NCBI GenBank assembly: GCA_903927345.1
Contig: CAIYMO010000031.1
Location: 1-64,000 of the forward strand
Source: an uncultured Armatimonadota bacterium
Lineage (GTDB): Bacteria > Armatimonadota > Fimbriimonadia > Fimbriimonadales > Fimbriimonadaceae
Direction: 5' to 3'
Length of the DNA stretch: 64,000 bases
Position numbers and translations under genes: made by a program. This document shows, in pieces, positions 25,197 through 41,840 of the stretch. Numbering within the stretch: the stretch's first letter is position 1; each line of letters begins with the position of its first letter. The notes under the pieces are model-generated. The model was given only the letters and a program-made list of their open reading frames with translations. It did not search any database and had not been told where the DNA came from.

Positions 25197-25228
25197 GAAA
25201 TGCCCTGCTCTTTTGAGCAGGGCATTTC
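25197..25228. terminator. Bidirectional 14-bp hairpin between convergent genes
   Basis: GAAATGCCCTGCTC (25197-25210), loop TTTT, GAGCAGGGCATTTC (25215-25228): a perfect 14-bp stem in the gap between the hypothetical gene and malate dehydrogenase. The T-tracts are weak on both sides. Confidence 0.7.
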
Positions 25229-26244: not shown

Positions 26245-26275
26245 AAGCCCCATCGCCGTAAGGCAAATGGGGCTT
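26245..26275 (-). terminator. Hairpin between the small basic protein gene and mdh
   Basis: AAGCCCCAT (26245-26253) pairs with ATGGGGCTT (26267-26275), with an inner GCC-GTAA-GGC. It lies about 25 nt beyond the stop of the minus-strand small basic gene. The T-tract is poor on the minus strand. Confidence 0.6.
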
Positions 26276-26298: not shown

Positions 26299-26529
26299 TT
26301 ACGCTGCTTTGACTTCGTCCGCAAGCTGTTGATTGACGTAGACCTGAAGCCGCAATTCTTGAATTTTGGTTAGGTTGCCATGCTTATGTTCCTTAGCGCC
26401 CGGAACCGGAGCGGGGCGGTCTGCCTTCCGCTTCTGAACCGTCTTGAGTAGCCACTCCTTTGTGTCTTCGATCTTTGCAACCACGCGTCGTGTTTGCTTT
26501 CTTCGCCAAGCTCGAGTTCGATTTGTCAT
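26299..26529 (-). CDS. Small, highly basic protein of unknown function
   Basis: A 76-residue protein that I do not recognise. It is rich in Arg and Lys, starting TNRTRAWRRKQTRRVV, with a mostly helical prediction and no hydrophobic segment. It may bind nucleic acid or ribosomes. GAAGGA 4 nt before ATG 26529 is a good ribosome site; an upstream in-frame ATG at 26595 would place the 5' inverted repeats inside the coding region and is rejected. Three inverted repeats lie upstream (26542-26652) and a hairpin downstream (26245-26275). Confidence 0.7.
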   Translation of the reverse strand: MTNRTRAWRRKQTRRVVAKIEDTKEWLLKTVQKRKADRPAPVPGAKEHKHGNLTKIQELRLQVYVNQQLADEVKAA

Positions 26530-26541
26530 CGTATCCTTCTC

Positions 26542-26559
26542 GTGCCGTATTAACGGCAC
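26542..26559 (-). repeat. Inverted repeat GTGCCGT-ATTA-ACGGCAC
   Basis: A perfect 7-bp inverted repeat with 4-nt centre, ending 12 nt from the ATG and just before the Shine-Dalgarno of the small basic gene. It could be an operator or an RNA hairpin controlling translation. Confidence 0.5.
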
Positions 26560-26560
26560 A

Positions 26561-26589
26561 TTAAGAACCAGCAATTGAACGGTTCTTAA
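26561..26589 (-). repeat. Inverted repeat TTAAGAACC-N11-GGTTCTTAA
   Basis: A perfect 9-bp inverted repeat directly adjacent to the previous one, in the leader or promoter of the small basic gene. Confidence 0.5.
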
Positions 26590-26616
26590 CTCCATGATAC
26601 GAAACCCCAGAGTGTT

Positions 26617-26652
26617 ACCGGGACTGAGGGCCTAGTGAAATCTTGTCCCGGT
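26617..26652 (-). repeat. Inverted repeat ACCGGGAC-N20-GTCCCGGT
   Basis: A perfect 8-bp inverted repeat 6 nt after the GH1 gene. It may end the GH1 transcript, although no T-run follows on the minus strand. Confidence 0.45.
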
Positions 26653-26657
26653 TGAAA

Positions 26658-28016
26658 TTAACTCAGCGCAATGTCGCCGTTGGAGCCGATGACGTCCCGA
26701 TACCAGTACGCCGAATCCTTTGGAGTGCGCACTTGGGTCTCATAGTCAACGTAAACAAGGCCGAAGCGGAACCGGTAACCCTCGTTCCACTCGAAGTTGT
26801 CCATCAGTGACCACTGGAAGTAGCCGGCGATCTCAACGCCATCTTGACCAGCCCGGTGGAATTCGCGCATGTATCGCGTCAAGAAGTCGATTCGCTGAGG
26901 ATCATGGATCTTGCCGTCCACATGGGGCCAATCCGAAAGGCCGAGGCCGTTTTCAGTGATCACGATCGGCTTGCCGTACTTCTCATAGAAGAACTTCGGA
27001 CCCCAATACAGAGCTTCCGGCGTGACTGGCCAGTGGTAGATCGTGCGTGCCATACCCTGCGGATGCGGGAGGACCTCAGGCTTACCGTCTGCTCCGGCTC
27101 GAACGCGTGGAGCGTTGTAGATGTTGGCGCCAAAGAAGTCGGGCACTTGGTTGATGATCTGCATATCACCCTCTGCCGGCTTGTAATAGCTCGTCTCCCA
27201 CAGCTTGTTGATGCACTCGGGATAGGTGCCGAAGAAGACTGGGTCATTCCAAAGCGGCAGCGACCAGATCGAGAAGGAATCCATCTCAAGAGTCGCCTTG
27301 CGCGCTGCTTCGATATCTGCGGCAGAATCAGAAGCTGGAATCGAACAAACACCCACCGGAGCCCAGCCAATCTGGGCACCATTCGTGATGTTAGATCGCA
27401 ACACCTGAGCCGATCGTCCGTGTGCCAGCAGCGCATTGTGCGATGCCCAAAGGAGTTCCTGCTGCCCGAGCTTGTCGCCGGGTGCGTGCGAGCCAGTTTC
27501 GTAGCCCAGTCCGAGGAAGACCTGCGGTTCATTAAGTGTCATCCAAGAAGCCACGCGATCGCCAAGCTTCTTCGAAACGATCTCCGTGTAGTCGGCAAAC
27601 CACTTCGAGATGTCAGCATTCAGCCAGCTGCCTTGCAGATAAATGTCGTAAGGGGTGTCCCAGTGGAACAAGGTGACATGAGGGTCAATCCCGTGCTCCA
27701 GAAGACAATCAATCAGATTGTCATAAAAGTCTAAACCAGCCTGGTCAATCGTGCCTCGACCGGTCGGCAAGATGCGGGGCCAGGACAGAGACAGACGATA
27801 GTTTTCGATCCCCAGTTCTTTCATCAGGGCGCAATCTTCACGGTATCGATTGAAGTGATCGCAGGCAACATCACCGTTGCTTGCATCATGAATTGCGCCT
27901 GGGCGCTTGCAAAACATGTCCCAAACGCTATGGCCGCCCCCGACTAAGTAGGGAGACCCTTCGATCTGGTAAGAGGCTGTCGCAACGCCCCATCGGAAAT
28001 CGGCTGGAAATGACAC
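26658..28016 (-). CDS. Beta-glucosidase, glycoside hydrolase family 1
   Basis: A 452-residue retaining beta-glycosidase of full GH1 length. Motifs in order: FRWGVATASYQIEG (N-terminal signature, 7-20), acid/base Glu163 in TLNEPQ and nucleophile Glu355 in ITENGLG, then FQWSLMDNFEW near 408-418. No signal peptide, so it probably hydrolyses cellobiose or aryl and alkyl glucosides in the cytoplasm. GTG start with TATACT 7 nt upstream. The divergent gap of 78 nt is shared with an oxidoreductase pair that may act on the same sugars. Confidence 0.93.
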   Translation of the reverse strand: MSFPADFRWGVATASYQIEGSPYLVGGGHSVWDMFCKRPGAIHDASNGDVACDHFNRYREDCALMKELGIENYRLSLSWPRILPTGRGTIDQAGLDFYDNLIDCLLEHGIDPHVTLFHWDTPYDIYLQGSWLNADISKWFADYTEIVSKKLGDRVASWMTLNEPQVFLGLGYETGSHAPGDKLGQQELLWASHNALLAHGRSAQVLRSNITNGAQIGWAPVGVCSIPASDSAADIEAARKATLEMDSFSIWSLPLWNDPVFFGTYPECINKLWETSYYKPAEGDMQIINQVPDFFGANIYNAPRVRAGADGKPEVLPHPQGMARTIYHWPVTPEALYWGPKFFYEKYGKPIVITENGLGLSDWPHVDGKIHDPQRIDFLTRYMREFHRAGQDGVEIAGYFQWSLMDNFEWNEGYRFRFGLVYVDYETQVRTPKDSAYWYRDVIGSNGDIALS

Positions 28017-35877: not shown

Positions 35878-35900
35878 GCTCAAAAGCCTTCCTCAAAAAA

Positions 35901-35931
35901 GACCCGCCAACTGAGTGGCGGGTCTTTTTTT
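35901..35931. terminator. Bidirectional rho-independent terminator
   Basis: GACCCGCCA (35901-35909) pairs with TGGCGGGTC (35916-35924), followed by seven Ts. A run of As precedes the stem, so it should also end the convergent peptidase transcript. Confidence 0.9.
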
Positions 35932-41766: not shown

Positions 41767-41840
41767 TGCCGGATCGTCTAATGGCAGGACAGCTGTTTTT
41801 GGTGCAGCACGTCAAGGTTCGAATCCTTGTCCGGCAGCCA
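41767..41840 (+). tRNA. tRNA-Gln (anticodon UUG)
   Basis: The acceptor TGCCGGA pairs with TCCGGCA, the T-arm CAAGG-TTCGAAT-CCTTG is perfect, and the anticodon stem GCTGT/GCAGC closes the loop TTTTGGT with anticodon TTG. The discriminator is G and the CCA end is encoded. Confidence 0.95.

Follow-up and report, generated by a model that had tools for sequence, protein, structure and literature searches.

Why should the gene for a protein of only 76 residues be preceded by three consecutive perfect inverted repeats? This question is raised by a locus in a stretch of 64,000 nucleotides (the window) from an uncultured bacterium of the Fimbriimonadaceae, for which the initial annotation had suggested either a self-regulating RNA- or DNA-binding protein or an sRNA-like leader. 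The comparisons described here favor a cis-acting RNA leader in front of a gene for a probable RNA-binding protein, at a probability of about 0.58. Confidence in this reading is reduced by the result of a promoter scan and by nine members of the protein family that fall outside both leader models.

The features of the locus are listed in Table 1. All three inverted repeats were found where they had been reported, as was the hairpin after the gene, and the product is indeed rich in arginine and lysine (pI 10.8, 19 K/R versus 8 D/E).

Table 1. Features of the locus, with positions in the window
Feature	Position	Strand	Remarks
Gene for 76-aa basic protein	26299-26529 including stop	minus	ATG at 26527-26529; product starts MTNRTRAWRRKQTRR
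Shine-Dalgarno-like AAGGA	26534-26538	minus	4 nt 5' of ATG; assigned by sequence and rule
Hairpin H2	26542-26559	minus	7 pairs, 4-nt loop; arms GTGCCGT (26542-26548) and ACGGCAC (26553-26559); Shine-Dalgarno 3 nt further 3'
Hairpin H1	26561-26589	minus	9 pairs; arms TTAAGAACC (26561-26569) and GGTTCTTAA (26581-26589); conserved loop letters ACCG....A.T.CT.G; inferred mRNA 5' end
-10-like box TATCAT	26594-26599	minus	4 nt 5' of H1; putative promoter
Conserved GTTTCG	26600-26605	minus	Directly upstream of -10-like box
Third inverted repeat	26617-26652	minus	8 pairs, 20-nt loop; arms ACCGGGAC (26617-26624) and GTCCCGGT (26645-26652); excluded from leader
Terminator-like hairpin 3' of gene	26245-26275	minus	9 perfect pairs
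GH1 glycosidase gene	26658-28016		Its end is the upstream neighbor on the minus strand, before a short block conserved in relatives
Lactate/malate dehydrogenase gene			Next after the terminator-like hairpin on the minus strand

Short perfect repeats are common in this DNA: 90 (arms ≥7, loops 3-21) were counted over the whole 64-kb window, against an average of 66 in 20 first-order Markov simulations. This abundance is consistent with a chance origin of the repeats, in which case the gene would be an ordinary small orphan. However, three non-overlapping perfect repeats within 112 nt occur at this locus only in the window and in none of the 20 simulations, which bears out the earlier remark that such dense symmetry is not seen elsewhere in the window. 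The three repeats are present but do not form one unit; only H1 and H2 belong together. The third repeat was rejected as part of the leader: its right arm is inside a block conserved in the relatives L006 and L007, its left arm is outside that block, and the repeat as such is not conserved. Identity to these two relatives is 69-70 of 85 positions in the leader and 25-27 of 85 further upstream. An in-frame ATG at 26595 would lengthen the protein N-terminally to 98 aa, but this start was judged unlikely: it overlaps the -10-like box, and by eye the added residues lack conservation in L008-L012. A search of Rfam 15 at the gathering score gave a tRNA at 41767 as the sole match in the window, and no match in the loci of 10 relatives.

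The protein family was searched for in 85 genomes of the window's bacterial family and 291 of the phylum. The protein was found in 21 of the 291 phylum genomes, every one of them in the window's own bacterial family; within the genus it occurs in 16 of 20 genomes, and outside the genus in 5 genomes of three other genera. Among named records, a Fimbriimonas sp. MAG (L004) comes closest; it was excluded from counts as a copy of L007. Four genus genomes (G008, G009, G016 and G025) gave no match to the protein, and since three of these assemblies are at least 98% complete, the loss of the gene may be real. Judged from its coding sequence, the protein is under strong purifying selection (window versus L006: dN ~0.02, dS ~0.82, dN/dS ~0.03); in the pairs window-L008 and L008-L009, synonymous sites are saturated. 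The 21-member alignment has an invariant N-terminus, MxxRxRAWRR, with M1, R4, R6, A7, W8, R9, R10 and R60 invariant and K19, T23, W26, K46 and Q57 nearly so, and pI ranges from 10.0 to 11.9 over the members. The charge and the invariant arginine/tryptophan motif suggest that the protein binds RNA. AlphaFold, run on two sequences, predicted helices at 3-37 and 55-75 joined by a loose linker (mean pLDDT 76.9, pTM 0.36); the helices of this model are usable, and their arrangement is not.

Relatives beyond the family were sought widely. Scans of the 21 members gave nothing convincing in Pfam (best E 0.0099, VirE2, for one member), NCBIfam (best E 0.014) or PHROGs (best E 0.054), and no match was common to more than three of the 21. 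The best PDB chain for the family profile was a uL13 chain at E 0.81. No relative was found in 50,697 phage records, none of 16 motif stretches in viral contigs was confirmed as a relative, and plasmids gave one partial match of 35% (E 0.6) inside a VgrG gene. Seven weak N-terminal matches, all short, were found in other genomes outside the family. Six look by eye like chance frames and were set aside; the seventh (G110), a 33-residue frame starting MGTRNRAWQRRHARL with no clear ribosome site, could conceivably be a member. A candidate from Verrucomicrobia (L005) was rejected, because it lies on the opposite strand within a long ORF that was taken to encode a transporter permease. In the Fimbriimonas literature, the protein was absent from titles and abstract beginnings among the matches listed, which is no proof of absence from print.

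Evidence in support of a structured leader came from comparison of the window with seven relatives, L006-L012, which together make up group 1. The window's leader RNA folds far better than its shuffles (z -4.9 in a first set of folds, from which L025 was left out, and -4.8 over a slightly different stretch). The stem and loop letters of H1 are conserved in group 1, and the loop letters are invariant in all eight leaders, even though some of these pairs of members have saturated synonymous sites. Where the stem does vary, pairing tends to persist: in L012, AAGAACC/GGTTCTT has become GAGAGACC/GGTCTCTC, a compensatory rewriting of the stem, and in L010 and L011 the outer H1 pairs are changed with pairing kept. 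Over the eight leaders, 63 of 72 H1 arm pairs hold versus 57.5 with permuted arms (fraction 0.0097); over six leaders, with the near-identical L006 and L007 dropped, 49 of 54 hold, a count reached by 16 of 720 permutations. The sequence of H2, by contrast with its place, differs among members, reading GCCTC/GAGGC in L010, CTTGCC/GGCAAG in L008, GCCC/GGGC in L012, and CTTG/CAAG with a GAAA loop in both L009 and L011. MAFFT aligned H2 poorly, with pairs in 48% of cells, so the covariation of H2 in group 1 is judged by inspection; for the whole structure, 66.4% of cells pair versus 34-47% in slid controls. RNAalifold found H1 alone in this group, with an unfavorable covariation term (+0.64).

The initial annotation had proposed conservation of the repeats with compensatory changes as a check, and loss of the repeats in close relatives that keep the gene as an argument against it. 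Each describes part of what was found. In the close relatives L006 and L007 the exact repeats have changed: H2 is down to 3 pairs, H1 lacks its outer pairs in L006 and additionally carries a mismatch in L007, and the third repeat is absent. The L006 leader folds weakly (z -0.98), and that of L007 folds into another structure. This failure of the exact repeats to persist in the two nearest relatives would be expected if they had arisen by chance. Yet in more distant members two hairpins reappear at the same place, and the two-hairpin layout with compensatory changes extends to 12 of the 21 members.

Four of these 12 (L014, L018, L020 and L021) form group 2, whose leader sequence is quite unlike that of group 1. 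RNAalifold gave the same layout, consisting of a 7-pair hairpin, directly followed by a 4-pair hairpin, two bases and then GGAGGT. Double changes occur in 4 of 11 pairs, and 90.9% of cells pair versus 22.7-50% in slid controls. The covariation score was reached by 2 of 500 shuffles, in a set of four sequences only and with shuffles that ignore relatedness. The comparison shows two types of leader in which predicted tandem hairpins precede the ribosome site, and the interpretation in the initial annotation is partly supported: its structured leader for the small basic protein gene finds support in these 12 members. The remaining nine members fit neither leader model, as would again be expected of chance repeats. 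Among these nine, group 3 (L023-L025) has one hairpin directly after GATAATAGTGA, with a weak consensus (RNAalifold covariation +0.23), and L013, L015, L016, L017, L019 and L022 have no leader in common; L016 and L019 have a single hairpin immediately 5' of the Shine-Dalgarno sequence.

Family leaders were also compared with ordinary leaders of the same genome. Among 446 ORFs of at least 100 aa in 464 kb, with starts assigned by rule, 208 had at least 100 nt free upstream and served as controls. With leaders folded individually (the stretch for L008 shifted 25 nt upstream for the z test, since its hairpins lie further from the ATG), the 21 family leaders had a mean z of -1.60 versus -0.28 for the 208 controls (Mann-Whitney p 1.6e-4). 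The z of the window's leader was reached by 1 of 208 controls; values near or above zero were obtained for L013, L014 (group 2), L015, L017, L019 and L022. The mere number of hairpins differed little, with two or more in the predicted fold of 52% of family leaders versus 38.5% of controls. A hairpin just 5' of the Shine-Dalgarno sequence, with at least 4 Watson-Crick pairs and an energy of -4 or lower, was found in 10/21 versus 17/208 (Fisher 1.5e-5), and tandem hairpins at an energy of 0 or lower in 7/21 versus 7/208 (Fisher 4.5e-5); both p-values are too kind, given the relatedness of the members and a cut-off set post hoc. At cut-offs of +5, -2, -4 and -6, the tandem counts were 7, 6, 3 and 1 of 21 versus 9, 4, 0 and 0 of 208. 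L022, at z 0.55, is one of the seven tandem cases, as is L012, for which an inner stretch of H1 was counted; L008, unshifted, counts as a miss. Together with the uniqueness of the triple, the compensatory changes and this excess over control leaders argue against chance, which we regard as a very doubtful explanation.

Where the transcript begins bears on how the hairpins could act. Group 1 leaders share GTTTC(G/T)TAT 5' of H1, and the -10-like box reads TATAAT in L012; a TATAAT-like box at the right place occurs in group 1 only. No clear -35 box was found upstream of TATCAT, and a simple scan for sigma-70 consensus promoters gave none at this place, so it is conservation that points to the box, and we infer only a putative promoter there. 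In most group 1 leaders the stretch GTTTCGTATCAT (26594-26605) is conserved to the same degree as the hairpin, and it may be a special promoter element. GTTTCNTAT is absent from all 208 control leaders; for GTTTCGTAT, 928,000 strand-bases contain two occurrences, one of them at this site, or about as many as chance would give.

A dyad at a putative promoter could also be read as DNA. In this alternative, H1 would be an operator immediately 3' of the -10 box, and a repressor, which might be the protein itself, would bind it. The 9-bp dyad lies at the expected promoter-proximal place and its arm sequence is well conserved in group 1. The test of RNA versus DNA is neutral, since, by eye, the transcript strand has no more G-U pairs than A-C mismatches; this, too, is compatible with an operator. 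However, the dyad at the same place in group 2 has an unrelated sequence, with H2 two bases before the Shine-Dalgarno sequence. Searches of the genus with leader models give a further argument. Model R1, built from group 1, found a single confident copy per genome, always at this gene, in 8 of the 20 genus genomes (E 3.9e-16 to 5.9e-9; next matches E 0.29 or worse), and R2, built from the four group 2 members, one in each of 4 of the 20, also at this gene (next E 0.018 or worse); training members match by construction. The models are carried by only 8 and 4 related sequences, and because each recognizes its own group only, they do not establish a sequence relationship between the two leader types. 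Neither R1 nor R2 had a second confident copy in the 20 genus genomes among 150 of up to 1,188 first-look candidates scored per genome, a fraction at which weak further copies could be missed. The absence of a second confident copy among these candidates counts against a repressor-bound operator, which we consider unlikely. A shared regulon signal was likewise rejected, given that only cis copies of the leader were found among the candidates scored, and the earlier suggestion of an sRNA-like leader finds no support, as the element occurs only in cis, once per genome at a confident score.

In Fimbriimonas and its near relatives the gene stands alone as a single-gene unit. When a simple ORF rule was applied to 19 loci, the closest ORF upstream was oriented away from the gene in 11, and at these 11 the gene therefore needs a promoter of its own. 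The neighborhoods of members vary. A Pfam scan of 20 of 37 neighboring ORFs placed GH4 upstream of the gene in L006 and also in L025, from another genus, GH35 upstream in L020, an MFS/HEAT protein and NamZ beside L009, GH127 beside L017 and a helicase beside L014; no phage domains were found among the 20 ORFs scanned. Thus sugar genes (GH1, GH4, GH35, GH127 or NamZ) adjoin some members, and other members have none. Synteny breaks at 26633-26658, with GH1 upstream in the window versus GH4 in L006 and L025, and since GH4 is shared with another genus, the junction with GH1 appears to be the more recent one. On the downstream side, a strict scan found a perfect-stem hairpin within 130 nt of the gene in 17/21 members; the T-tracts that follow are uneven in quality (1 T in 9 for L019), and the downstream hairpins of the window, L008, L010 and L015 are longer-looped or mismatched. 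A terminator scan found 4 such sites in 3 kb versus 3.4 in shuffles, and by itself is therefore no evidence. Two longer perfect inverted repeats elsewhere in the window are probably two-way terminators: one of 14 bp with a 4-nt loop between seemingly convergent genes (25197-25228), and one of 15 bp with an A-run at its start and a T-run at its end (35895-35930).

A one-gene unit with a structured leader that encodes a small, basic protein, predicted to be helical and having an invariant arginine motif, also recalls the feedback control of ribosomal proteins, in which the leader would mimic the site on rRNA where a lineage-specific ribosomal protein binds. There is a precedent in S15, a single RNA-binding protein for which distinct leader structures serve in different lineages (PMC4137082). 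The present leaders resemble those of rpsO (S15) in being short, structured 5' UTRs that reach the ribosome site of a small, here putative, RNA-binding protein gene, in abutting that site (a feature that prediction and comparison support in the window and in groups 1 and 2, though not in every member), and in differing by lineage while the protein is conserved. Unlike the products of r-protein leaders, the window's protein is no known ribosomal protein, and no rRNA mimic was found when the H1 profile was applied to the organism's own 16S and incomplete 23S, where the best sites were at chance (0.8 and 0.5 expected). The 9-mer GCTGGTTCT, common to the leader and 23S, was dismissed as mimicry on the same profile test. 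Moreover, the gene is present in 16 of 20 genus genomes and hence not needed in all, and bS21 is present in 20 of 20 and hence not replaced by the protein, which disposes of the candidate role of a bS21 substitute. Mimicry of an rRNA site is accordingly improbable.

Two other known proteins invite comparison. RMF is a small basic protein of two helices and a linker, and lambda N has an N-terminal arginine-rich helix with a tryptophan and a hairpin in its own leader. The window's protein is likewise small and basic, but it comes from a different phylum than RMF, and the best PDB match of its family profile is the uL13 chain. Like lambda N, it combines a predicted N-terminal arginine-rich helix containing tryptophan with a hairpin in its own leader; unlike lambda N, it is a single chromosomal copy in the genomes searched, and the phage records and viral contigs yielded no confirmed relative. 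The rmf mRNA is unusually long-lived, at about 24 min (PMC8778775).

The most probable of the alternatives is a generic 5' stabilizer and insulator read by no protein, in which H1 would slow mRNA decay and H2 would keep the ribosome site open. The 5' stem-loop of ompA is the type case of a 5' stabilizer, and the present locus would share with it a stem-loop at the putative 5' terminus of an mRNA that carries one gene. In favor of this alternative, H1 in group 1 starts a few bases after the -10-like box, and between groups the leader sequence differs and the layout stays. It differs from the ompA type in that a second hairpin abuts the Shine-Dalgarno sequence and in that the loop letters, not the stem alone, are invariant in group 1, which counts against a generic stabilizer. 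Precedents for 5' stem-loops that stabilize mRNAs are given in a review (PMC7509114), along with one that destabilized its mRNA when too near the Shine-Dalgarno sequence.

Within the preferred reading of a cis-acting RNA leader, transcription would start just past the -10-like box; a start ~7 bases after TATCAT would fall within the first bases of H1, and this would fit the loss of the outer pairs in L006. The mRNA would then begin with H1, H2 would abut the Shine-Dalgarno sequence, and the stacked hairpins may act in cis on the translation or decay of this one mRNA. The MxxRxRAWRR helix of the protein would bind RNA, most likely an invariant target elsewhere, and excess protein may bind its own leader and block the adjacent ribosome site. 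Such autogenous control is the mechanism we prefer, on account of the position of the ribosome site directly after H2 and the conservation of both loop letters and pairs in group 1, but only at odds well short of even; a generic leader that stabilizes the mRNA or tunes initiation is about as likely. The pairing of an invariant protein motif with dissimilar leaders neither requires nor excludes self-regulation. It is a tentative possibility that the protein is a ribosome- or RNA-associated factor of the Fimbriimonas family that regulates itself via a fast-evolving leader RNA.

With this locus, a little-studied phylum gains a protein family that has no name and two types of leader RNA unmatched by Rfam. 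If self-regulation by the protein is real, an invariant RNA-binding motif would be matched with leaders that change their sequence but keep their shape, comparable to the S15 leaders; if it is not, the leader would still exemplify a pair of 5' hairpins in which structure is preserved better than sequence. Should the self-regulating factor be real, it would constitute a new natural system in which the RNA regulator turns over while its protein partner stays fixed.
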